In this document: positions 805 to 11,564 of the stretch, piece by piece
Layout: each line of letters starts with the position of its first letter
Position numbering within the stretch: the stretch's first letter is position 1
From: a virus
IMG/VR virus record: IMGVR_UViG_3300031825_000076
Coordinates: 1-22,004 of that record
Strand: one strand, 5' to 3'
Length of the DNA: 22,004 nucleotides
Translations under genes and position numbers: made by a program
Notes under the pieces: model-generated
Databases searched by the model: none
What the model was told of the DNA's origin: nothing
The model's input: only the letters and a program-made list of their open reading frames with translations

Positions 805-1158
805 CTAAAGGCACGAAGCGACCAATGCCCTTATTCTATCGTCCCAGGACTTGTTGGACTGAATTCCGACGGTGCGGCGCGTCCCTTCGTCATTGATCGC
901 CACTAGATAGGCAACCGAGTCGATCGCCCAACCTTCAGCTCCAGCGAAGATCAGAACCTTCCGCTCTCCCCTAATCGACATTGGTAACGCGAGATCGGCT
1001 AGACCTACGCCGATACAGTACTCGAGTTCCAATGAGCTCTTATCACTCGCTTGGGTGGCGGGAGGCATCTTGCTCAACCGTTGCTGCAGATCCTCCGCGT
1101 ACGCGGTCTTCGCCAAACCTACGGCTAGACTGGCAATCAAGGCGGTGATGACCTTCAT
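805..1158 (-). CDS. Small exported protein encoded behind the repressor
   Basis: This 117-residue protein starts with a clear Sec signal peptide: Met-Lys, a hydrophobic run, then TAYA before Glu-Asp, so cleavage is likely after residue 21. The mature part is about 96 residues with two cysteines (EYCIG and the near C-terminal ASCL) that could pair in the periplasm. An AAGGA sequence sits about 7 bases before the ATG. The gene follows the repressor stop by only 13 bases on the same strand, so it is probably co-transcribed with the repressor and made in the lysogen. That placement is typical of lysogenic conversion or superinfection-exclusion proteins, but no family was recognised and the role is inference. 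Local GC is visibly lower than in the structural genes. Confidence 0.75.
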   Translation of the reverse strand: MKVITALIASLAVGLAKTAYAEDLQQRLSKMPPATQASDKSSLELEYCIGVGLADLALPMSIRGERKVLIFAGAEGWAIDSVAYLVAINDEGTRRTVGIQSNKSWDDRIRALVASCL

Positions 1159-1171
1159 GCACTATCCTTTC

Positions 1172-1831
1172 CTAGACCTTCTTCACGACTGCGACGACGC
1201 GACCGATGATATGAAGTTCGTCGTGCGCAACCGGATAATCGCTGACGTCCGGGTTGTCGGAGACCAGATGGACGCCGCCGTCAGGTAGAACTCGAACACG
1301 CTTGATCATCGCGATTGACCCTGCGTGCAGCGCCCAGAGCTGATCGCTAACCCTTACCATCTCCTGGCTGCGGTCGATCAGCACAAGGTCGCTCGGGTGA
1401 ATCGTCGGAACCATAGAGTCGCCAATCCCGATCGCGAAATAGAGGCGGCTGGACGGCGCGCGCGTGAATTGTCGGATGAACGATCGGGGAAATCGCTCGA
1501 TCGAAGTTGCGACCGAAGCGTCGTCCACGAAGGAGCCGCCCATGCCATAAGCTACATCTGAAACGACGACTTCGACGAGATCGTCGAGATCGCGATGCCT
1601 GGCGATGTCGTGGCCGTTGCCACTAGGCTCGGGATCGTCGGTCTCACCCACGAGGAATTCGACGGACGTATGCAGCTCGCGCGCAATCCGATGGAGATGT
1701 GCCGAACTGTGCGACTTGCCCGAGATGAGCGCAGATATTGTCGGCTGCTTCAGGCCGACTCGGCGCGCGAGCTCGGCCCCCGACATGTCGAGTGCCTTGA
1801 GACGGTCTCTGATCCGATCCCCCACCGTCAT
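1172..1831 (-). CDS. CI-type repressor (XRE helix-turn-helix plus S24/LexA-like peptidase domain)
   Basis: This 219-residue protein has an N-terminal helix-turn-helix at about residues 17-38 (SGAELARRVGLKQPTISALI). The C-terminal S24 domain has the nucleophile in GDSM (Ser139) and the paired lysine in AMIKRV (Lys177). These are the residues used by LexA/CI proteins for self-cleavage in the SOS response, so induction by DNA damage is likely. The linker near residues 90-100 (SDVAYGMGG) may hold the cleavage bond. It is divergent from the Cro-like gene across an 86-base control region, the usual immunity layout. The start at 1831 is taken from the helix-turn-helix N-terminus; no good ribosome binding site precedes it. 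Confidence in the family is high; operators and SOS control are inferred. Confidence 0.92.
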   Translation of the reverse strand: MTVGDRIRDRLKALDMSGAELARRVGLKQPTISALISGKSHSSAHLHRIARELHTSVEFLVGETDDPEPSGNGHDIARHRDLDDLVEVVVSDVAYGMGGSFVDDASVATSIERFPRSFIRQFTRAPSSRLYFAIGIGDSMVPTIHPSDLVLIDRSQEMVRVSDQLWALHAGSIAMIKRVRVLPDGGVHLVSDNPDVSDYPVAHDELHIIGRVVAVVKKV

Positions 1832-1917: not shown

Positions 1918-2223
1918 ATGCCGAACTCATCCACTCCCTTCGACGCGCTTGAAGAGCTCATTGCGAGAGCTGGCGGATCCCAGAGCGCGCTGGCGCGTGC
2001 ATTAGAGGTCTCTCAGCCCACCGTCTGGCACTGGCTACGGTCGTCGAAGCGACTGCCTGCCGAATACGTGCTCACAGCGGAGAGGCTCTACGGCGTCTCC
2101 AGGCACGATCTGCGGCCGGACGTCTATCCACGCGATTACCCTCCTGCTCCCGAAGCCCGGAAGCCCGCGGATCATGTCAGCGCCGGCCGCGAGGCGCACC
2201 GTCTAAGTGGCGGTGCCAAATGA
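1918..2223 (+). CDS. Cro-like / YdaS-family helix-turn-helix regulator
   Basis: This 101-residue protein has a helix-turn-helix at about residues 21-42 (SQSALARALEVSQPTVWHWL) followed by SKRLPAEYVLTAERLYGVSRHDLRPDVYP. That arrangement is characteristic of the YdaS/Cro-like family that sits opposite phage repressors. It is the first rightward gene and probably the antirepressor of lysogeny, shutting off the divergent repressor promoter. The start at 1918 is supported by this conserved N-terminus and follows the putative promoter so closely that the message may be nearly leaderless. The last residues (AHRLSGGAK) are encoded by one copy of a 39-bp repeat found again at 2790. Confidence 0.85.
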   Translation: MPNSSTPFDALEELIARAGGSQSALARALEVSQPTVWHWLRSSKRLPAEYVLTAERLYGVSRHDLRPDVYPRDYPPAPEARKPADHVSAGREAHRLSGGAK

Positions 2224-2229
2224 GCAGCC
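2191..2229 (+). repeat. 39-bp direct repeat, copy A
   Basis: This copy spans the end of the Cro-like gene and the following ATGAGC. It matches copy B (2790-2828) at 32 of 39 positions by eye, with a perfect 14-base core GGCGCACCGTCTAA (2193-2206). It can form a stem GCACCG/CGGTGC around TCTAAGTGG. Confidence 0.75.
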
Positions 2230-2822
2230 TATTCAGCTCTGTCGGCGTCAAGGTAAGCTGGTCGGGCGAAGTCAGGGACCAGTTCGGTCGCCGATTCTGG
2301 TCGATGGAATCGACGCAACTTGCGGGCCGCTGGGCAACCCTCATGCTCCCGAGTCGGGCGGACGACTTCGTCATCATCCAAGACGCGGCCGGCCGTGAGT
2401 TTCGCGCCGACCTGATCGCTGACCCCTTCATGCGGTCGAAAGCCGCGCAGGTCGAGGAAGCGAAGAGGCGGACATCAATCGTTCGCCGGCAGGCTGAACT
2501 GCTGGTCGATCTCATTGATCAGCGCCTCGAGGAACAACTCCGCGCCGGCAATTTCTTCTGCCGCCTCGCCGCCCATTTGCCGCCTGGCTTGTTCAAACGC
2601 CTCTTCCATCGTGCCGGGCAACCTCGTCTCGACAATGCGGAGATGTGCGCGGACCAGGTGCCGCTGCGCGTCGATGCGAGCCTCAAGTTGGCTCAAGCGA
2701 TTTTCGAACATCCGCACGCGGTCCTCCAGGCTCGGCCCCATGTTGTGCCTCCAGTCTTGAGCAGCCCGATTCCTAGCGACGCCAAAGTGGCGGCGCACCG
2801 TCTAAATGGAGACGCGAAATGA
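2220..2822 (+). CDS. Uncertain rightward ORF; N-terminal part plausible, C-terminal half antisense to another gene
   Basis: The frame opens at ATG 2220, overlapping the Cro-like stop, and stays open for 200 residues. The first 90-100 residues read like a real protein, with GRRFWSMESTQLAGRWATL and a helical, charged stretch RSKAAQVEEAKRRTSIVRRQ. The part after about 2475 lies opposite a leftward gene that looks far more protein-like. The frame ends AHRLNGDAK, nearly the same as the end of the Cro-like protein, because it runs into copy B of the 39-bp repeat. The original gene may have been shorter and have had its tail replaced when the leftward genes arrived. No family recognised. Confidence 0.4.
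   Translation: MSSLFSSVGVKVSWSGEVRDQFGRRFWSMESTQLAGRWATLMLPSRADDFVIIQDAAGREFRADLIADPFMRSKAAQVEEAKRRTSIVRRQAELLVDLIDQRLEEQLRAGNFFCRLAAHLPPGLFKRLFHRAGQPRLDNAEMCADQVPLRVDASLKLAQAIFEHPHAVLQARPHVVPPVLSSPIPSDAKVAAHRLNGDAK
2475..2741 (-). CDS. Small coiled-coil protein, leftward, unknown function
   Basis: This leftward gene encodes 88 residues starting MGPSLEDRVRMFENRL. Residues 5-42 carry regular hydrophobic spacing (RVRMFENRLSQLEARIDAQR) typical of a coiled coil, and the rest is rich in Glu and Ala with predicted helix. A strong GGAGG lies 7 bases before the ATG, which is why this start is preferred over an upstream one at 2798. It runs against the surrounding early genes, and a rightward frame is open across the whole of it. 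I judge the leftward reading real because of its ribosome binding site and coherent heptads. It probably shares a leftward transcript with the gene at 2831-3121. Function unknown. Confidence 0.65.
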   Translation of the reverse strand: MGPSLEDRVRMFENRLSQLEARIDAQRHLVRAHLRIVETRLPGTMEEAFEQARRQMGGEAAEEIAGAELFLEALINEIDQQFSLPAND

Positions 2823-2828
2823 GCGGCC
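2790..2828 (+). repeat. 39-bp direct repeat, copy B
   Basis: The partner of copy A (2191-2229) shares the perfect 14-base core (2792-2805). It lies between the two leftward genes. It can form a stem CGTCT/AGACG around AAATGG. The 11-mer ACCGTCTAAAT (2797-2807) also occurs in inverted orientation in the left phage end at 251-261. Confidence 0.75.
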
Positions 2829-2830
2829 GG

Positions 2831-3121
2831 TCACTGAAGGGTATCGGCGAGCGGGTTCCGAACGCGGACGAAGAGCTCCTCGACCAAGTCGTGGTATCCG
2901 ACCCGATAGAGCACGGCGAGCTGGTTGAGGACGGTCAGAGCGGCGCCCTCGGGGGTGAGATGGAATTGCCCGCTGCAGGCGCGCAGCATGAAGTTGTTCT
3001 CGCCGCGGAAGACGAGGACGGTGCCGTCGAACCGACATCGGACGAACTCGATTCCGTCCGCTGGAACGACTTCCTCTCCAAACTCACGTCCCTCGACGGT
3101 CGTCAGTTCCGCGTCCGGCAT
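2831..3121 (-). CDS. Small unknown protein, leftward, in the early region
   Basis: The leftward ATG at 3121 gives 96 residues with a strong ribosome binding site (AGGAGAAGGGG just upstream). The protein is mixed alpha/beta with an acidic first half (VEGREFGEEVVPADGIEFVRC), a strand-rich middle (GTVLVFRGENNFMLRACSGQF) and a helical end (LAVLYRVGYHDLVEELFVRV). No family recognised. The opposite rightward frame is also open, but its translation is low-complexity acidic and looks like a shadow. With the neighbour at 2475-2741 this forms a two-gene leftward island inside a rightward operon, like a moron: a cargo unit expressed separately from the lytic programme. No clear promoter was found for it. 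Confidence 0.7.
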   Translation of the reverse strand: MPDAELTTVEGREFGEEVVPADGIEFVRCRFDGTVLVFRGENNFMLRACSGQFHLTPEGAALTVLNQLAVLYRVGYHDLVEELFVRVRNPLADTLQ

Positions 3122-3154
3122 ACCCCTTCTCCTGCTGGTGTCGACAACCGCAGG

Positions 3155-3571
3155 ATGACCGAAGCGGCCGCCCTTCGGCAAGCTCTGGCTGAGCGGAATG
3201 CGAAGGGCGGCCGCCGAGAGCGAGTGATTCTTGCCGCTTTGGCGGCGGCCGCTGCAGCCGGCGCCTTCGTCGTCAGCTCGCCCGCCTCCGCGCGGCAGAA
3301 TCCGGGGCCGGACGGCTATGCCTTCGAGCGCAAGGAGTACACGCAGACACGGCTCGACGTGCGGATCGTCGAGCACGCGAGTTACCGCGAGCTGCTGGCG
3401 GCCATGCCGAACGGTGGCCCGCCCCGCGCGGTTCGCAAGGTCCAGGCCTGGTCGAACATCTCGCCGGACGGCTTCTGCGAGATCCACATCATCGACCAGT
3501 CGGTCAGCTACACGCCCGAGGCGATCGGGCACGAGCTGGCGCACTGCATCTATGGCCGGTGGCACGACTGA
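3155..3571 (+). CDS. Exported or membrane-anchored HExxH-motif protein (putative zinc metallopeptidase)
   Basis: From ATG 3155 the protein has 138 residues: a charged N-terminus (residues 1-26), a hydrophobic segment RVILAALAAAAAAGAFVVSS ending SPASA (about 27-50; signal peptide or anchor), and a globular part. It ends HELAHCIYGRWHD, so the HExxH zinc-binding motif is at residues 126-130 with another histidine at 137. The motif is placed at the extreme C-terminus, which is unusual for a working peptidase. The same frame is open upstream to 2819, but that part is antisense to a better leftward gene, so the start at 3155 is preferred even though its ribosome binding site is weak. Enzyme activity is inferred from the motif only. 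Confidence 0.65.
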   Translation: MTEAAALRQALAERNAKGGRRERVILAALAAAAAAGAFVVSSPASARQNPGPDGYAFERKEYTQTRLDVRIVEHASYRELLAAMPNGGPPRAVRKVQAWSNISPDGFCEIHIIDQSVSYTPEAIGHELAHCIYGRWHD

Positions 3572-3620: not shown

Positions 3621-3920
3621 ATGAGCAGGACGTGCCTGGTCGACCAATGCGGCAAGCCCGCGCTGGCGGCCCAATCGCTGTGTCTGAAGCACGGCGTGTT
3701 CACTCCGCAAGGCATGCGCGAGGACCTGCGCCGGGCCTGCAGCGATCGTCTCGGCATCGAGAACCGCATCCTGGACGGGAAGCCGGTGTCACCCGAGGAC
3801 GCCGCCGCGGCCGAGTTCGTCGTGGCCCGGATGGAGGCGGCGGTCCGCGCCTGGTGGACGGTCGATTCTGCCCTGACCGAACCGAGGGTGCACGAGACCC
3901 CGACGAGGGCCGCGGCGTGA
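3621..3920 (+). CDS. Small protein with N-terminal C-x4-C / C-x2-H zinc motif
   Basis: These 99 residues start at ATG 3621 with GGAG about 8 bases upstream. The N-terminus reads CLVDQCGKP...LCLKHG, a C-x4-C...C-x2-H pattern that could bind one zinc ion. The remainder is helical and charged. Its stop overlaps the start of the ParB-like gene (GTGA junction), so the two are translationally coupled. No specific family recognised; nucleic-acid or protein binding is a guess. Confidence 0.75.
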   Translation: MSRTCLVDQCGKPALAAQSLCLKHGVFTPQGMREDLRRACSDRLGIENRILDGKPVSPEDAAAAEFVVARMEAAVRAWWTVDSALTEPRVHETPTRAAA

Positions 3921-4918
3921 CCGTTCGGCAAGTTCAAGGCGAGCGTGGGTCGCTCCTTTCCAACGCCGCGCTGTTCGAGGTCTCGCCGCTGCATGTCGAC
4001 GAGGGTGAGCGGATCGGCTTCCTGCACGAAGACAAGGCTGCAGCCATCGGGCGGCTGATGGCCGTCGACGGCCAGCGGGACCCGATCAAGGTTGTTGCCA
4101 GCAACAACCCGGACAAGCCGTGGCGCCTGGTCACCGGGATGCACCGGCTGATCGGTGCGCGGATCGAAGCTATCACCGTCTGGGCGATCGAGGTTTCGGG
4201 CAAGCCCGAGGACCTCGCGGACCTCGAAGCGTCCGAGAACCTGCACCGCCGCCCGCTGGCGCCGATCGAGCGCGCCAAGTTCGTCCATGCGCTCTGCCAA
4301 GCCGCTCAAGAGCGGATCGCTCGTGAGCATGGCGAACTGAAGCAGCAGCAGCTGGCCGTTCGAGCCCGCTGGCAGCGCGTCAAGGGCGGCGAGTCCCGTG
4401 TCGAAGACGCGCTCGCCGAAGAGACCGGCGATACGAGTGACAAAATGTCGCGCGTATACGGCTGGGCCGATTCTGCGGCCGAAGCCCTGGGCCTCGACAA
4501 ACGAACCATCTTCCGTTCCCTGGAGCTCTACCGCCTCGTCGTCGAGCCGTTTCCCGATCTGGCCGAGGACCTCTCGAAGCATCCTGTCGTCGGCGAGAAC
4601 GCCGCCCAGCTGCGGCTGATCGCCCAGGTCAGGACAGAGGCCGAACGCCGCGCGGTGATCGAAGCCCTGCTGGCCGACGAGGAAATCGGCGCCGACGACG
4701 CGCGGATCCTGGCCGGCATCGATCGCCCGGCCGGCCCGGCGCCGGTCGCCTATCAGAAGCACTACAACGCCATCGAGGGCGGGTGGTCACGGCTCGGCCT
4801 CAGCGAAAAGCGCCGGTTCCTGCCGAAACTGGTCAGCCTGCTGACCCCGGAAATGAAGCGCGAGCTGCGCGACCGGCTCAACGAAGAGCTGGAGGCAGAG
4901 GCCGCCGATGCGCGGTGA
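3917..4918 (+). CDS. ParB/Spo0J-like (ParB N-terminal domain) protein
   Basis: This 333-residue protein starts with GTG 3917, which overlaps the previous stop and has GAGGG upstream. Residues about 22-120 form a ParB N-terminal domain: HVDEGERIGFLHEDK, then the nucleotide-binding signature GMHRLIGA (residues 74-81), then ENLHRR (107-112). The middle (about 115-210) is helical with a possible helix-turn-helix (AAEALGLDKRTIFRSLELYR). The end is charged. ParB-domain proteins are common in the early regions of B3-like and alphaproteobacterial Mu-like phages, where their role is not established. Family known: CTP/DNA-binding partition proteins and related nucleases. No parA gene is next to it, so partition is unlikely. 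Confidence 0.85.
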   Translation: MTVRQVQGERGSLLSNAALFEVSPLHVDEGERIGFLHEDKAAAIGRLMAVDGQRDPIKVVASNNPDKPWRLVTGMHRLIGARIEAITVWAIEVSGKPEDLADLEASENLHRRPLAPIERAKFVHALCQAAQERIAREHGELKQQQLAVRARWQRVKGGESRVEDALAEETGDTSDKMSRVYGWADSAAEALGLDKRTIFRSLELYRLVVEPFPDLAEDLSKHPVVGENAAQLRLIAQVRTEAERRAVIEALLADEEIGADDARILAGIDRPAGPAPVAYQKHYNAIEGGWSRLGLSEKRRFLPKLVSLLTPEMKRELRDRLNEELEAEAADAR

Positions 4919-5606
4919 AATCTCCTCCGGCAGCTACGACAAGCGGCACCCGTACGACTGGTACGTCGACCCGCAATGGGTCACCGAGCAGCTGATCCGG
5001 GCGGTCGGCTTCCGCGAGGAGCTGACGCACGGCGAGGCGATCTGGGACCCGAGCTGCGGGTTCGGCAACATTCCCTCGATGTTCGAGGGATGGGGCTTCG
5101 GCGGCCGCGTCTGGCTGTCCGACGTCGTGCGCAACGTCGACGGCAGCAACTTCGTCGAGCCGTTCGAGTTCTTCGCGGCCGACTTTCTCGAAGTCGAGCA
5201 TGCGCCGGCGACCTGTTCGATCGTCTGCAACCCGCCCTACAGCTACCGCAAGGTCCAGCGCGTCCTCATTTCCGAGCTGTTCGCGCGGCACGCGCTGAAG
5301 CTGGTGGGTGAGTGCGGCGGGCGCCGCGTCTGCATGCTGCTGCCGAGCAAGTGGCTCGCCGGCCAGGCGCGCTATCGCCTGTTCACCGAGTTTCCGCCGC
5401 AGCTGGTGCTGCACCTGTGCCAGCGGCCCTCGATGCCGCCGGGCGACCGCATCGCGGCGATGGGCAACCGGGCCTTTCGTGGCGGGAGGGTCGATTACTG
5501 CTGGATCGTGTGGGACGTGACGCGGCCGACGGCGATCGGCGCGACGCGCACCGTTTGGCTGCCACCGCTCGGCGAGGCGGTGCGACCTGTGGAGGGGCTG
5601 GCCTGA
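4908..5606 (+). CDS. Orphan adenine-type DNA methyltransferase (NPPY)
   Basis: This 232-residue protein has the two core methyltransferase motifs in amino-to-carboxy order: the SAM-binding loop DPSCGFGN (residues 47-54) and the catalytic NPPY (108-111), typical of N6-adenine DNA methyltransferases. It is short, with little room for a separate target-recognition domain. It overlaps the ParB-like gene by 11 bases and no restriction gene is nearby. Probable role: methylating phage DNA during replication to avoid host restriction or to tune regulation. That role is inference. Confidence 0.85.
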   Translation: MRGEISSGSYDKRHPYDWYVDPQWVTEQLIRAVGFREELTHGEAIWDPSCGFGNIPSMFEGWGFGGRVWLSDVVRNVDGSNFVEPFEFFAADFLEVEHAPATCSIVCNPPYSYRKVQRVLISELFARHALKLVGECGGRRVCMLLPSKWLAGQARYRLFTEFPPQLVLHLCQRPSMPPGDRIAAMGNRAFRGGRVDYCWIVWDVTRPTAIGATRTVWLPPLGEAVRPVEGLA

Positions 5607-5977
5607 TGGCGGGCCCGGGCCAGAGCTACGCAGACCGGCTCGAGCCCGCGCTCGGCCGGACGACGCGCGGCGACGACGCCTGGGAATGGCAGCGTGCCTA
5701 CGAGGATGCGCTGCGCTCGCTGCAGTCGCTGCCCGATCCGGCGCTGTTCGCGGTCTCGATCGACGCTCACCATCGCGAGGCGCTGCGCACCGCCTGGCGC
5801 AGCCGCGAAGGCTGGCGGGTACAGCCGGAGTACGTGCGCGAGCTGAGGCTGCTCGGCCTGGTCGAGGTGAGCGGCGATCCGCATCGGCCCGAAGCGCACG
5901 CCGAGACACGCAATTACCTGAGCGGCTTCGGCATGGCCGTGCGCCGGGTGGTGCTCCAGGCAGAGGACCTCGGCTGA
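5606..5977 (+). CDS. Hypothetical early protein, 123 aa
   Basis: ATG 5606 overlaps the methyltransferase stop by one base (TGATG) and has GGAGGGG about 8 bases upstream. The protein is helical with aromatic/arginine patches (DDAWEWQRAYEDALRSL; REGWRVQPEYVRELRLLGLV), which could be a small winged-helix fold, but I do not recognise a family. It lies in a run of small coupled genes between the methyltransferase and transposase. Confidence 0.75.
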   Translation: MAGPGQSYADRLEPALGRTTRGDDAWEWQRAYEDALRSLQSLPDPALFAVSIDAHHREALRTAWRSREGWRVQPEYVRELRLLGLVEVSGDPHRPEAHAETRNYLSGFGMAVRRVVLQAEDLG

Positions 5978-6267
5978 TGCGGCCGTCGACCTCGCCCCGC
6001 CAGATGCAGCTGCTGCGGTTCATCCGCGGCTACCAGCTGGCCAAAGGGTATTCGCCGAGCTTTCGCGAGATGGCCGAGGGAATCGGCCTCTCGCCGCGGG
6101 CCAAGGCACGGGTCTTCGACTTGCTGGCGAACCTGGAGAACCGCGGCCTGGTCCGCCGGCTCTACGGCCGGGCGCGCGCGGTCTACCTCGTGGCAAGACC
6201 TTCGATTCCGCGTGCGCCGGACGGTGCGCCGCTGTTCGAAGTGGTCAGCTTTCGGGAGGCGCGCTGA
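5977..6267 (+). CDS. LexA-type winged-helix DNA-binding protein, 96 aa
   Basis: Residues 6-70 resemble the DNA-binding domain of LexA: SPRQMQLLRFIRGYQLAKGYSPSFREMAEGIGLSPRAKARVFDLLANLENRGLVRR. Here the recognition segment follows SPSFREMAEGIGL and a wing follows RGLVRR. There is no peptidase domain, so it is a stand-alone DNA-binding domain, probably a regulator of phage or host (perhaps SOS) promoters. The one-base TGATG overlap with the previous gene and an AGAGGA sequence support the start. Confidence 0.8.
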   Translation: MRPSTSPRQMQLLRFIRGYQLAKGYSPSFREMAEGIGLSPRAKARVFDLLANLENRGLVRRLYGRARAVYLVARPSIPRAPDGAPLFEVVSFREAR

Positions 6268-6515
6268 TGCGTCGCGCCGACTTCGCCTCGGACGCCGAAT
6301 ACTACCGGGCGCACCGCAGGGCCTTCCTGCTGGCGCAGGAGCTGGGCTGTACGCCGGCCGAGGCGGAGCGGCGCATCAAGGCCGAGGAGGCGCGCCTGCG
6401 CGATATTGCCGCACAGCATCGGCTCGATGCCCGGCTGAATGCCCCGCTGGCGCCCGGCATGCCCGAGCTGCGCCATACCCCGGCGTGGGATGCGCCGTGG
6501 ATGATGCAGGAGTGA
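6267..6515 (+). CDS. Hypothetical early protein, 82 aa
   Basis: The start ATG 6267 overlaps the previous stop, with GGGAGG just upstream. The protein is a charged helical hairpin (DAEYYRAHRRAFLLAQELG, then TPAEAERRIKAEEARLRDIA) with a proline-rich tail. No family recognised. Confidence 0.7.
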   Translation: MRRADFASDAEYYRAHRRAFLLAQELGCTPAEAERRIKAEEARLRDIAAQHRLDARLNAPLAPGMPELRHTPAWDAPWMMQE

Positions 6516-6520
6516 GCGGC

Positions 6521-6823
6521 GTGGGACGGAAACACACGCGCCGCCACCGGCAGAATCTGCGCCCCGCGCCGTTCTCGATCACGCCTGCGATCGTGCGCGC
6601 CGTGTTGGAGCTGACGTCCCGGCCACAGCCGGCGCTGGTTCAGGTGCCGATCCTGCCCATCAAGCTCGTCGATCGGCCGCGCCGCTCCGAAGACCCGCGG
6701 CTCGCCATGGCCAACGACGACGACGGCTGCGCTCCGTCGCCGGCAAAACTGGACCTGAACAACGTGCCGAGCGCGATGGAGCGCCTGGCGGAGAGCTGGC
6801 GGCGGGAGAAGACCGATGGCTGA
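6521..6823 (+). CDS. Hypothetical early protein, about 100 aa
   Basis: GTG 6521 is preferred because AGGAG lies 8 bases upstream; GTG 6512 (overlapping the previous stop as GTGA) is the alternative. The N-terminus is strongly basic (GRKHTRRHRQNLR), then FSITPAIVRAVLELTSRPQPALVQVPILPIKL. No family recognised. The basic head suggests contact with nucleic acid. Confidence 0.65.
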   Translation: MGRKHTRRHRQNLRPAPFSITPAIVRAVLELTSRPQPALVQVPILPIKLVDRPRRSEDPRLAMANDDDGCAPSPAKLDLNNVPSAMERLAESWRREKTDG

Positions 6824-6998
6824 GGCCGCGCTCCCGATCATGCCGCTCGACGACACCGCCCGCGACGGCGAGCTGCGCGTGGTCGGCAACGGCGAGCACT
6901 TCGCGCTGGCGCGATTCACCGACGAGGGATGGAAGTTCAACAGCGGGCTCCCGCTCGATTTCGATCCCATCGGCTACTACCGCCCGAGGGCCGGCTGA
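6816..6998 (+). CDS. Small hypothetical protein, 60 aa
   Basis: ATG 6816 overlaps the previous gene by 8 bases, with GGGAG upstream. The sequence has a compact beta pattern (GELRVVGNGEHFALARFTDEGWKF) ending PLDFDPIGYYRPRAG. Similar small proteins with this PLDF ending are often seen in Mu-like early regions, but no function is known to me. Confidence 0.7.
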   Translation: MAEAALPIMPLDDTARDGELRVVGNGEHFALARFTDEGWKFNSGLPLDFDPIGYYRPRAG

Positions 6999-7348
6999 TG
7001 GCCGACGCGAGGCGCCTCTCGGTGCTCGGATACCGGTCGCAGGTCGATGCCTGCGTCGCGCTCGCGGACGCCGGCCTGACGCCCGCGGAGATCGGCGTGC
7101 GTATCGGCCGGGACGCCGGCCACGTGCGGGCCGCGCTTCGCGGGCGCAAGGCGGTGCCGAAGCCGCGCACGTTCACGCTCCCGCGGCACATCATCGAATG
7201 CCTCGGCAGCGCAGCGGCGGCGCGGGGAATCGAGCCCGTCGAGCTCGCCCGGCAACTGCTCGACACGATCGTCGAAGACGACCTGTTCGACGCTCTGCTC
7301 GGCGAGGCGGTTGCGCCGCAGCAAACCGGGGGCGCGGCCGATGGCTAA
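6998..7348 (+). CDS. Putative DNA-binding protein with helix-turn-helix and RHH-like part, 116 aa
   Basis: Residues about 22-50 form a helix-turn-helix (LADAGLTPAEIGVRIGRDAGHVRAALRG). Residues about 58-100 (TFTLPRHIIECLGSAAAARGIEPVELARQLL) resemble a ribbon-helix-helix unit of the CopG/Arc type. Two DNA-binding-like parts in one small protein suggest an early regulator. It overlaps its neighbours at both ends (TGATG start, 8-base overlap with the next gene). Confidence 0.7.
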   Translation: MADARRLSVLGYRSQVDACVALADAGLTPAEIGVRIGRDAGHVRAALRGRKAVPKPRTFTLPRHIIECLGSAAAARGIEPVELARQLLDTIVEDDLFDALLGEAVAPQQTGGAADG

Positions 7349-7814
7349 GGCGAAGCCGCACCCCGCCCAGCTGGGCTTCGTGTTCGATCCGCCGCCGCCG
7401 GCGACGGGAGCTGCGTGCCTGGCGGGAATCGAGCAGCGCATCTGCCGCACAGTCGGCACCATTCTCGCCAGCGACGGCCGCGCGCGCGCGGTGATCGCAG
7501 CCGAGATGAGCGAACTGCTCGACGAGACCGTGAGCAAGGAGATGCTCGACGCCTACGCCAGCCCGGCGCGCACCGAGCACAAGGTGCCGATGTGCCGCTT
7601 TCTGGCGCTGGTGGCGGTGACGGGCCGCCACGACCTGCTGGACCCGCTGCTGCGCGAGATCGGCGCGGCGCTGCTGGTCGGCGAGGAGGTGCACACCGTG
7701 CGGCTCGGCCACATCCGGCGGCAAATCCAACAATTGAGGGCGGAAGAACGGCGCATCGAGGGATCGGCGCCGCTCATCCGGACAGGGGGAATGAATGGCC
7801 AGTCGGGCAGTTGA
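7341..7814 (+). CDS. Early protein preceding the transposase, 157 aa (possibly CII/CP76-like)
   Basis: ATG 7341 starts a 157-residue protein. The middle (SKEMLDAYASPARTEHKVPMCRFLALVAVTGRHDLLDPLLREIG, about residues 70-113) resembles the arrangement of phage CII/CP76-type regulators, in which a helix-turn-helix is followed by a helical segment tracking 'leucine/threonine-glycine-aspartate' repeats. The end is a charged helix (GHIRRQIQQLRAEERR) that may oligomerise. The last 20 bases overlap the transposase start. Role as a regulator is inference. Confidence 0.7.
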   Translation: MAKAKPHPAQLGFVFDPPPPATGAACLAGIEQRICRTVGTILASDGRARAVIAAEMSELLDETVSKEMLDAYASPARTEHKVPMCRFLALVAVTGRHDLLDPLLREIGAALLVGEEVHTVRLGHIRRQIQQLRAEERRIEGSAPLIRTGGMNGQSGS

Positions 7815-9771
7815 TCATGACGCTCCCGTACACCGCACGACCCGCGAGTGGTTCACGGCCGCCGAGCTCGCCGAGCTCGCGTTGCCGGGCCTGCCGGGCG
7901 ACAAGCGGTCGATCAACCGCCGCGCGCAGGACGAGCGGTGGACTTCGCGCGCCGGCACCGACGGCAATTCGCTCGTGCGGCCGCGCGTGGGCCGGGGCGG
8001 CGGAGTCGAGTTCCATGTCACCCTGCTGCCCGGTGCCGCCCGGCTCGAGCTGGCCCGCCGCGGGATCACAGCCGACCGGCCGGCGCCCGAGCTGGTCGAA
8101 ACCGACGAAGGCGGATGGCGCTGGTTCGACGCGCAGAGCGGCAAGATCAAGGCCGAGGCCGAACGCCGCCTGGCGATCGTCGGCGAGGTGGAGCTGCTCG
8201 AGAAAGCGGGCATGACGCGTACGGCAGCCATCGCCGCCGTCAGCTCGCGGCACGAGAGGGCCAAGACTGCCACCGTGTGGAACTGGCTCCGCTCGCTCGA
8301 GGGAGTGGCGCGCCATCATTGGCTGCCGGCGCTCGCGCCGCGGCATCGCGGTGGCGGACGCGAAGCCGAGATCGACGGGTTCGTGTGGAACCTGTTCAAG
8401 AGCGACTGGCTGCGGCCCGAATGCCCGACGCTGAGCAGCTGCTACGACCGGACGGTCGCTGCGGCGGCGCTGAGAGGGCTCTCAGTGCCCTCCGAGGCAG
8501 CCTTCAGGCGCAAGATCAAGCGGGAGCTGGACCCGGGCGTGGTGCTGCTCGCGCGCGGCGGCGCCGAGAAGGCCGTCCGCTCGATCCCCGACAACCGGCG
8601 CACGCTCGACAGCACCCACGCGATGGACCTGGTCAACATCGACGGCCACCAGTTCGACGTGTTCGTCGCCCGGCCCGAAGGCGGCAAGCCCGTCCGGCCG
8701 GTGCTGATCGCGATCCAGGACGTCTTCAGCCGCAAGATCCTCGCCTGGCGTCTCGACCTCAGCGAGAACGTGCTGGCCACTCGCCTTGCGTTCGCCGACC
8801 TGTTCGAGCGCTACGGCATCCCCAACCGCTGCTACCTCGACAACAGCCGCACGTTCGCCAGCAAGGCGCTGACGAGCGGCGCCGAGACGCGGTATCGCGG
8901 CAAGATCAAGGAGGAAGAGCCGGCGGGCCTGCTCGTCTCGCTCGGCATCCAGGTCCGCTTCGCGCAGATCTATCACGGCCAGTCGAAGCCGATCGAGCGC
9001 GCCTTCCGCGACATGAGCGACCGGATCGCCCGGCACCCGGCCTGCGCGGGCGCCTACACGGGTAACAGCCCGGTCAACAAGCCGGCGAACTACGGCAAGC
9101 GCGCGGTGCCGTGGGCCGAGTTCGAGCAGATTGTCGCCCAGGGCATCGCCGACCACAACGCGCGCCTGGGCCGCCGCACCGAGACGGCGCGCGGGCGCAG
9201 CTTCGACGAGACGTTCGCCGAGAGCTACGCCGCCTCGACGATCCGCAAGGCCGGGCCGGAACAGCTGCGCATGGCGCTGCTCGCCGCCGAGCAGAAGCGC
9301 GTCAACCGGCGCACCGGCGAGATCGATCTCTATGGCAACCGCTACTGGGCGCCCGAGTGCGGGCGGTATCTGGGCGAGCTGGTGACCGTGCGGTTCCACC
9401 CGGACAACCTGCACCGCGAGATCCACCTCTATGGCCGTGACGGCGGCTACCTGGCGCGGGCCGAGGTGATCCAGGACTTCGGCTTCGCCGAGCAGGCCGG
9501 CGCGATCTCGGCAGGCAAACGGCGCAAGAATGCGATGCGCCAGGTACGCGACGGGCTCGCGGCCGAACGGCTGCTCTCGGCCGAGGCGGTCGCCGAGCTG
9601 CAGGCGCCGATCGCCGAGCCCGAAATCCCCGCGGCGAGCGTGGTGCGGCCGGTCCGGCCGGCGATGACCACGCGAGGCGCGGCGGCACTGCGGCAGGCGC
9701 CGATCGTGAGCAGCGAGAGTGAGACGCGAATGTCCAACGCCCTGCGGCTGATCGTCGGAGGCGAGAAGTGA
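7795..9771 (+). CDS. A: DDE transposase, MuA family
   Basis: This 658-residue protein matches MuA (663 residues) in length and order. The N-terminus (REWFTAAELAELALPGLPGDKRSINRRAQ) is the Mu-type winged helix that binds the internal enhancer. Then come end-binding helices, the catalytic domain, and a C-terminal tail that would contact the AAA+ partner. The acidic triad is intact: Asp283 (NIDGHQFDV), Asp349 (CYLDNSRTF) and Glu401 (GQSKPIERAFRD). The gaps of 66 and 52 residues are close to those of MuA (D269, D336, E392). The start follows AGGGGGA. The protein performs strand transfer for integration and replicative transposition, acting at the left end described above. Confidence 0.95.
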   Translation: MASRAVDHDAPVHRTTREWFTAAELAELALPGLPGDKRSINRRAQDERWTSRAGTDGNSLVRPRVGRGGGVEFHVTLLPGAARLELARRGITADRPAPELVETDEGGWRWFDAQSGKIKAEAERRLAIVGEVELLEKAGMTRTAAIAAVSSRHERAKTATVWNWLRSLEGVARHHWLPALAPRHRGGGREAEIDGFVWNLFKSDWLRPECPTLSSCYDRTVAAAALRGLSVPSEAAFRRKIKRELDPGVVLLARGGAEKAVRSIPDNRRTLDSTHAMDLVNIDGHQFDVFVARPEGGKPVRPVLIAIQDVFSRKILAWRLDLSENVLATRLAFADLFERYGIPNRCYLDNSRTFASKALTSGAETRYRGKIKEEEPAGLLVSLGIQVRFAQIYHGQSKPIERAFRDMSDRIARHPACAGAYTGNSPVNKPANYGKRAVPWAEFEQIVAQGIADHNARLGRRTETARGRSFDETFAESYAASTIRKAGPEQLRMALLAAEQKRVNRRTGEIDLYGNRYWAPECGRYLGELVTVRFHPDNLHREIHLYGRDGGYLARAEVIQDFGFAEQAGAISAGKRRKNAMRQVRDGLAAERLLSAEAVAELQAPIAEPEIPAASVVRPVRPAMTTRGAAALRQAPIVSSESETRMSNALRLIVGGEK

Positions 9772-9774
9772 AGC

Positions 9775-9811
9775 GGCGCGCGGGGCCAGCGTAGGAACTG
9801 CCCCGCGCGCC
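9775..9811 (+). promoter_or_regulatory. Perfect 12-bp hairpin between transposase and AAA+ genes
   Basis: GGCGCGCGGGGC (9775-9786) pairs perfectly with GCCCCGCGCGCC (9800-9811) around a 13-base loop. It begins 3 bases after the transposase stop. There is no T-run, so it is not a simple intrinsic terminator. It may be an RNA processing or stability element, or a translational barrier uncoupling the two genes, which here lack the usual overlap. Confidence 0.75.
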
Positions 9812-9844
9812 ATGTCCCAAGCGAGGAACAGGAGCACGAATATC

Positions 9845-10828
9845 ATGAACGACCCCAAAGCACAGCCCATCGACATCGAGGAGCAGCGCGCCTGGATCAA
9901 CGAGTACAAGCGCGACACGGGCCTCAGCTGGAACGAGATCGCCCGCCGCCTCGGGCAGGGTCGTCCGGGGCAGGACCTCAAGATGAGCACGCTCAGCCTT
10001 TTCGCCGGCAACAAGTACGCTGCACCCGGTGAGTGGATCGCCGAGGCGATCTTCAAGTTCCGCCAGACCCTCGCCTCGCAGGCGGCGCTTCGTAGCAAGG
10101 GCGTGGAAGTGCCCGGCTACTTCGACACCGAAACCAGCGGGCACCTGATCTATCGCCTCAGCTGGGCGCAGCGCGGCCGGATCGTGGTGTGCGCGCTGGC
10201 CGCCGGGCTCGGCAAAACCATCGCCGCGAAGCACTTCCAGGCCTGCAACGCCAGCGTGTTCCGCGTGACGATGAAGCCGTCGACTTCGGGCCTGTTCAAC
10301 ATGCAGCACGCCGTCCTGAAGAAGGGCCTGGGCGTGACGACCGCCTCAGGCAGCACCGAGAAGCTGTCCAGCCTGATCATGGATCGGGTCGAGAACCTGA
10401 CGAACCCGCTGCTGATCGTCGACGAGGCGCAGCACCTTACCGTGAAGGCGATCGAGGAGATCCGCAGCTGGCACGACGAGACCGGCCTCGGCATCGCGCT
10501 GCTCGGCAACGAATCCGTGCAGCAGAAGCTCGACGGCGGGCGGCGTTCGCCCGAGTATGCGCAGATCTTCAGCCGCATCTCGCTGCACATGTCACGCTCG
10601 CTGCCTCTGGCGGCCGATGTCGAGGCCGTGCTCGAGGCGTGGCGCGTCGACGATCGGCGCGTGTGCGAGGAGATCCACCGCCTGGCGCTTCTGCCCGGCA
10701 CGTTGCGCGGCGTCTCCCACGCCCTCGAGCTCGGCCATATGCTGGCCGCTGCAGAGCAGGAGCCGCTGGCGCTCAAGCACATCAAGGAAGCGTGGACTCA
10801 GCTGTCCTCGCGATCGGTGGCGGCATGA
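9845..10828 (+). CDS. B: AAA+ ATPase, MuB-like transposition target-selection protein
   Basis: From ATG 9845 (AGGAG 10 bases upstream) the protein has 327 residues; ATG 9812 would add 11 but abuts the hairpin directly. Residues about 25-60 form a small helix-turn-helix (GLSWNEIARRLGQ...STLSLFAGNKY), as in the N-domain of MuB. The ATPase core has a Walker A loop AAGLGKT (119-125) and Walker B LLIVDEAQ (189-196). MuB binds target DNA in filaments, stimulates transposase and gives target immunity. The family is clear; the details here are inferred. The last 4 bases overlap the next gene. Confidence 0.92.
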   Translation: MNDPKAQPIDIEEQRAWINEYKRDTGLSWNEIARRLGQGRPGQDLKMSTLSLFAGNKYAAPGEWIAEAIFKFRQTLASQAALRSKGVEVPGYFDTETSGHLIYRLSWAQRGRIVVCALAAGLGKTIAAKHFQACNASVFRVTMKPSTSGLFNMQHAVLKKGLGVTTASGSTEKLSSLIMDRVENLTNPLLIVDEAQHLTVKAIEEIRSWHDETGLGIALLGNESVQQKLDGGRRSPEYAQIFSRISLHMSRSLPLAADVEAVLEAWRVDDRRVCEEIHRLALLPGTLRGVSHALELGHMLAAAEQEPLALKHIKEAWTQLSSRSVAA

Positions 10829-11226
10829 GGCGCGCGCCCATCGACTGGACGCGCTGCCACTTGTGCGGCGGCGAGCCCGAGGCGGATTCGCCGCGCGGCA
10901 GCCCGACTTGCGCCGAGTGCCGGCCGATCCGCGAGCACGTCGTCGCAATGAGCAACACGGAGCAGACATCGATCGCGAAGTGCCGCTGTGGCTGGCGATC
11001 GGAGGTGGCGTGGGAACACCGCGCGACCGTCCAGGAGGCCAAGGTCCGGCTGCACTGGCGCGACGTGATCCGGCGCAAGCGCGCCGAGTACGACGCCGAG
11101 TTCGGCGCCGGTGCCGCGGCGGCCGAGCTGGACGCGGCGATCGCCGGCGTATCGGCCTTCGTCTTCCTCTCCGGCGGCGCGATCGGCCTGCTGCTGCTCG
11201 CCGACATGATCGGGAGGACCGCATGA
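10825..11226 (+). CDS. Zinc-ribbon protein with C-terminal membrane segment, 133 aa
   Basis: Two cysteine pairs lie in the first half: CHLCGG (residues 11-14) with CAEC (29-32), and a CRCGW at about 53-55. The end is a hydrophobic segment (AIAGVSAFVFLSGGAIGLLLLADMI) that should cross the inner membrane. This is an unusual mix for a gene between the MuB-like and DnaA-like genes: it could tether a nucleoprotein complex to the membrane, but there is no direct evidence. The ATG 10825 overlaps the previous stop. Confidence 0.7.
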   Translation: MRRAPIDWTRCHLCGGEPEADSPRGSPTCAECRPIREHVVAMSNTEQTSIAKCRCGWRSEVAWEHRATVQEAKVRLHWRDVIRRKRAEYDAEFGAGAAAAELDAAIAGVSAFVFLSGGAIGLLLLADMIGRTA

Positions 11227-11564
11227 CGAAGATCCTCAACATCGCCGAGCTGCGCAGCCGGGCGTTCGCGTTCGTCGTGCGCGAAACGGGCCTTTCCTAC
11301 GTGGAGATCTGCAGCCACCGGCGCTCGTCGCACCTCGTGGCTGCGCGCGCGCTGATCGTGTGGATCGCCAGGACCTACGGGCCCGAATTCCTCAGCTTCC
11401 CGGAGCTGGGCCGCTGGCTCGGCGGCCGCGACCACACGACCATCATGCACATGTGGAACGTCGTCGTGCCGCGGCTGCGTGCCCACGACGCCGATTTTCG
11501 CCTGCTGTGCGAGCGCTTCGCCGGGCAGGCCGCAATGCAGCCGGAGACCGAGACATGTCACTAG
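11223..11564 (+). CDS. Stand-alone DnaA domain IV-like DNA-binding protein
   Basis: The 113 residues contain the signature of the DnaA C-terminal domain: AARALIVWIARTYGPEFLSFPELGRWLGGRDHTTIMHMW (about residues 40-78). It includes GGRDHTT (67-73), which in DnaA reads the DnaA box. Domains I-III (including the AAA+ part) are absent. The gene follows the MuB-like AAA+ gene after one small gene. It may help the phage recruit or mimic host initiation at the transposed ends, or act as a regulator. Similar small proteins are found in other alphaproteobacterial phages. Confidence 0.85.
   Translation: MTKILNIAELRSRAFAFVVRETGLSYVEICSHRRSSHLVAARALIVWIARTYGPEFLSFPELGRWLGGRDHTTIMHMWNVVVPRLRAHDADFRLLCERFAGQAAMQPETETCH

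Follow-up and report, generated by a model that had tools for sequence, protein, structure and literature searches.

The early region of a Mu-like phage

The window, that is the whole stretch of 22,004 bases analysed here, is a Mu-like phage contig from an IMG/VR virus record, and Mu-type transposition genes are also encoded in it. The closest transposase relative, at 73% identity, is found in a prophage of an Altererythrobacter MAG (L009), followed by that of a Sphingomonadales MAG (L010) at 63% and those of several viral contigs; judged by these closest relatives, the host group of the phage is the sphingomonads. The rightward early operon begins with a Ner-type regulator gene (ner), and between this gene and a ParB-like gene (parB) lie two small leftward genes, A and B, which share their strand with a C repressor encoded downstream of both (Table 1). 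Gene A converges on and overlaps R1, the frame following ner, and genes B and R2 are divergent. A further leftward gene (805-1158, minus strand) of 117 aa and 55% GC closely follows the repressor on its downstream side; it displays a signal-peptide-like N-terminus and is placed like e4 of phage Fc02, making it a possible lysogenic conversion gene.

Table 1 Features of the early region in the window, with the positions of junction element J in relatives.
Feature	Position	Strand	Evidence or remark
C repressor (HTH + S24)	1172-1831	-	PF00717 2e-15; phrog_4 2e-40
Ner-type regulator (YdaS-like HTH)	1918-2223	+	PF15943 1.4e-17; phrog_35 9e-19
J1 (CACCGTCTAAGTGG...AAATGA), at end of ner	2193-2229	+	
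R1, frame after ner	2220-2822	+	coding-like in first ~85 codons (2220-2474)
Gene A, 88-aa all-helical orphan	2475-2741	-	GGAGG site; codon log-likelihood +10.5 leftward
J2, second copy, between A and B	2792-2828	+	
Gene B, 96 aa, family phrog_26297; pentapeptide-like strands, then two helices (predicted)	2831-3121	-	phrog_26297; independent HMM
R2 gene proper, probably exported	3155-3571	+	RR-hydrophobic signal; HELAH motif
ParB-like early gene, bordering the variable site on the right	3917-4918	+	phrog_3264 1e-18; 46-69% identity, six relatives
Methyltransferase	4908-5606		
J in relatives	L057 2165 (reverse complement); L003 330; L009 4647; L010 5162; L014 1665; L015 3429; L017 2310		

Coding strand of genes A and B

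ORF A runs leftward from an ATG at 2741 to a stop at 2475 and ORF B from an ATG at 3121 to a stop at 2831. The Shine-Dalgarno sequence of A, CTGGAGGCACAACATG, places GGAGG 6 nt before the ATG, and that of B, AGCAGGAGAAGGGGTATG, holds AGGAG at normal spacing, which bears out a sequence-only reading of this DNA that had singled out the two as leftward genes with strong ribosome sites. Among 20 other genes checked in the same phage, only two have GGAGG within the searched range. Codon usage likewise favoured the leftward strand, with log-likelihoods against the mirrored rightward frame of +10.5 for A and +3.5 for B, and as a control, all 77 windows of accepted genes scored positive for their true strand. 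With a larger pooled codon training set, A still won and B tied with its mirror frame; thus, the strand of B is decided by homology and not by codon use. Taken together, the case for a leftward coding strand is strong for B and good for A, the latter being very probably coded leftward with codon usage and the ribosome site as its two supports.

The same reading had pointed to a rightward frame open through both genes and had warned that automatic gene callers might choose the wrong strand. R1 and the R2 frame (2819-3571, plus strand) are indeed open, but this is to be expected, as a mirrored frame of 116 codons was free of stops in 200 of 261 windows (77%) of accepted genes of this phage. Mirrored frames are often open because GC-rich genes seldom use the codons TTA, CTA and TCA, and the rightward frame through A and B is therefore an uninformative by-product. 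The warning itself is well placed, since strand calls are unsafe here, where mirrored frames stay open in GC-rich phages. A reading that places the genes in the rightward frames and treats both leftward ORFs as artefacts is hardly credible: although the rightward frames are longer and run in the direction of the operon, the family match of B described below lies on the minus strand, which already contradicts this idea for B, and the rightward sequence facing A and B is without homologues. Homologues are thus not confined to the rightward frames, and on homology and codon usage these frames were rejected as genes for B and are unlikely for A.

Both rightward frames do appear to contain a gene. 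The codon score of R1 is strongly rightward over 2220-2474 and changes sign at ~2475, the end of A. Its first ~85 codons look like a real rightward gene and the remainder (2475-2822) mostly like the mirrored frame of A; no homologues of R1 were found. Within the frame of R2, residues 124-249 are 63% identical to L009 4939-5310, and residues 1-123 have no relative. The gene start is therefore placed near 3155, and the part of the frame upstream of it, to 2819, is antisense to B. The R2 product carries a metallopeptidase-like motif (GHELAHC), which is unusual for an early operon and is also present in L009.

A different division of the sequence would retain B and regard 2475-2741 as the C-terminal part of a 200-aa rightward R1, leaving A as a chance antisense ORF behind a chance GGAGG. 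This would agree with the finding of no homologue of A in any collection, with the frequency of open antisense frames at high GC, and with the R1 frame, which stays open as far as J2 and, like ner, terminates in HRLNGDAK. Nevertheless, we consider it unlikely, as the codon score of A puts the rightward reading below all 77 true-gene windows, the sign changes at the stop of A, and the pooled model also favours A; R1, moreover, is likewise without homologue.

Gene B belongs to an uncharacterised family, and gene A is an orphan

On the evidence of profile searches, B is a real leftward gene and a true member of the uncharacterised family phrog_26297. It aligned near full length with the family profile (residues 7-91 of 96 on profile positions 2-90 of 93, E=5.3e-7). 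An HMM built from 11 relatives without B gave B 37 bits (E=9.3e-10), compared with a best score of 9.8 bits among 2,000 shuffled copies of B, and in 23 phage loci with ~4,100 open frames nothing else came near B. The family is present in 13 of 398 order-level genomes (E<=0.001) and in none of 14 control genomes, and a class-level sample of 385 genomes contained two matches, both weak. Its members have DG..F..C.F in common, together with a second cysteine and a helical stretch containing GxAA. Relatives were reached by profile only: single-sequence searches with B in phages, plasmids, viral contigs, and genome contigs returned no homologues, and a profile scan of viral contigs returned no relatives. 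Gene A had no homologues in phages, viral contigs, or 398 Sphingomonadales genomes, where A-like matches (best per-genome E about 1e-3) were discarded as coiled-coil noise. The search of both translations suggested by the sequence-only reading was therefore productive for B and empty for A.

Nine readable genome contexts show the B relatives mostly as solitary chromosomal genes beside housekeeping genes, and most of the relatives inspected lie outside prophages and defence islands. A phage-borne member is found near the integrase in Elizabethkingia phage EKP1 (UKL15135.1; L056 11678-12255). There, it overlaps by 4 nt a gene for a small membrane protein (phrog_26238), whereas B is without such a partner and only ~25% identical to the EKP1 copy.

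A single-sequence model of B consists of four strands followed by two helices at low confidence (pLDDT 52), and a fold comparison was dropped, as matches to so poor a model are meaningless. The family profile weakly matched the pentapeptide-repeat MfpA structures (2bm4) over ~35 residues (E=0.003), and pentapeptide Pfam models gave no match for B and weak matches in only 3 of 11 relatives. B may accordingly be pictured as a very short beta-helix followed by a helical tail. The likeness to pentapeptide repeat proteins lies in this weak match of the family, hinting at a short right-handed beta-helix; B would differ from them in having about two coils only, and no gyrase-related evidence accompanies it. 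For A, the AlphaFold2 model (pLDDT 73) places helices at residues 5-40, 45-55, and 58-81, of which the first forms an N-terminal coiled coil predicted with confidence. The earlier description of the pair as coiled-coil plus globular agrees with these models, in which A is a coiled coil with further helices and B a small strand-plus-helix protein.

A junction element marks the ner-parB site

J1 and J2 form a 37-nt direct repeat with 84% identity and bound a 599-bp segment holding R1 and A. In the element J, CACCGTCTAARTGG leads into the start region of the following gene, whose start codon coincides with J or lies only a few bases away. In seven relatives, J is found either where ner ends or immediately ahead of parB, next to unrelated genes (Table 1). 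Peptide-level conservation of HRLxGxAK tails was considered as an explanation and rejected, since all copies retain a CTA codon for leucine and belong to unrelated genes, indicating conservation at the DNA level. J thus looks like a module border, and it may be a protein-binding site. In addition, a conserved left-end sequence, GTCTAGAGTC..GGTTAATTTAGACGGTT (233-262 in the window; ~1993 in L009, ~1167 in L015, and ~215 in L017), contains the core of J (CCGTCTAAAT) in inverted orientation, the copy in L017 matching the J 14-mer at 13 of 14 positions. It could be speculated from this common core that J is a transposase-type site inside the early operon.

The content of the site varies between relatives. 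In L057 and L003, the site is empty, ner and the parB-like gene being directly adjacent with J at their junction, while L009 carries a different 99-aa gene together with the R2 relative, and other small genes fill the interval in L010, L014, L015, and L017. As the site is empty or differently filled in these relatives, A and B are accessory cargo, in keeping with the moron-like status proposed from the sequence; the shuffling of content may come about by homologous exchange at J. The GC content of A (62%), B (63%), and the N-terminal part of R1 (63%) is below the 69.7% of the rest of the early operon (3917-11500), and low values are also seen in the repressor (60%) and ner (64%). A leftward gene is annotated at the same place in Rhodovulum phage vB_RhkS_P1. 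Candidate leftward ORFs are also seen in the interval of L014 (1365-1667, minus strand) and L015 (3129-3431, minus strand). A substitution test between these two phages, with 13 differences, and codon scores for the candidate region of L014, L015, and L017 were ambiguous as to strand. Overall, the cargo site is credible and not radically new, this kind of system being already known.

Possible roles of genes A and B

For the Pseudomonas phage Fc02, lysogen RNA-seq has revealed a transcript that begins ahead of olg1/olg2, which lie opposite gene 10, the gene that follows ner; this transcript takes in the repressor, and Olg1 and Gp10 each exclude other phages when expressed from plasmids (PMC9936078). 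By analogy, we find it on balance probable that A and B are two accessory repressor-strand genes of the ner-parB site that are made in the lysogen and exclude other phages or benefit the lysogen in another way. As both face the early operon, they would be expressed chiefly in the lysogen, while the rightward early promoter is inactive. A leftward promoter located upstream of B would drive them and send its transcript toward the repressor. Upon induction, converging early transcription would silence both. At least one product might then alter the susceptibility of the lysogen to other phages (superinfection exclusion) or confer some other benefit. Lysogen expression is proposed from the layout of the genes, since no sigma-70-like site scoring above shuffles was recognised upstream of A or B, in consensus scans that are weak for GC-rich alphaproteobacteria. 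A perfect 14-bp inverted repeat (3164-3214) lies just upstream of B, inside the start of the R2 gene, with a fold of about -40 kcal/mol and without a T-run.

The exclusion role taken by itself is a reasonable hypothesis, though less likely than not. Neither A nor B showed detectable sequence similarity to Olg1/Sie1-type genes, and tblastn against 50,697 phage records gave no match for A (E<0.1) or B (E<10). No family of the PADLOC defence models was matched by either protein at E<=1, nor was there a match in Pfam or NCBIfam, to toxin-antitoxin or conserved-domain families, or to any known exclusion protein, phrog_26297 itself being uncharacterised. The solitary position of most inspected B relatives beside housekeeping genes speaks against a dedicated anti-phage role. 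These contexts in sphingomonads would instead agree with lysogen cargo unrelated to defence, in which B performs a host-type function, as the chromosomal copies would, and A is neutral or regulatory, e.g., tuning the repressor or the early transcript by convergent transcription. The position of both genes upstream of the repressor and in line with it fits such a function as well, yet the sole characterised case of this layout acts in exclusion (PMC9936078), and we regard non-defence cargo as quite possible though short of probable.

The sequence-only reading had also raised the possibility of a two-component defence or exclusion unit, which, extended to a toxin-antitoxin pair, now seems very doubtful. 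Two small co-directional genes, one encoding a coiled coil and each with a strong ribosome site, invite the idea, as does the pairing of the B relative with a small membrane protein in EKP1. However, A and B are separated by an 89-bp gap with J2 inside, A is without relatives, none of the nine readable contexts of B relatives holds an A-like neighbour, the EKP1 partner is a membrane protein unlike A, and neither PADLOC, Pfam, nor NCBIfam returned a match. Most likely, A and B came separately and act independently.

A broader proposal would have the ner-parB interval as a cassette site that is bounded by the conserved ~30-nt J, which includes the start region of the following gene and a core in common with the left end, and that is loaded with repressor-strand exclusion genes of unrelated families, giving the B family a first role. 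In its full form, we consider this a speculative and rather improbable proposal. Independently of it, B offers an easily tested phage-borne copy of an uncharacterised chromosomal family.

Comparison with known systems

The site resembles the morons and regions of genomic plasticity of Mu-like phages, which similarly comprise small accessory genes of deviating GC at an indel site between conserved early genes (PMC4378225). For those regions, no recognisable flanks are reported (PMC4378225), whereas the ner-parB site is marked by a common junction repeat. The closest parallel is provided by olg1/olg2 (sie1) of Fc02 and B3-like Mu-like phages, which are also small repressor-strand genes upstream of the repressor and antisense to the gene after ner (PMC9936078). 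Unlike olg1 and olg2, which overlap, A and B are separated by 89 bp, and while expression and exclusion have been demonstrated for Fc02 (PMC9936078), A and B are likened to its genes by layout. If the comparison is right, the Fc02-type layout would extend to Mu-like phages from another class of bacteria, and the ner-parB site would be worth mining for small exclusion proteins.
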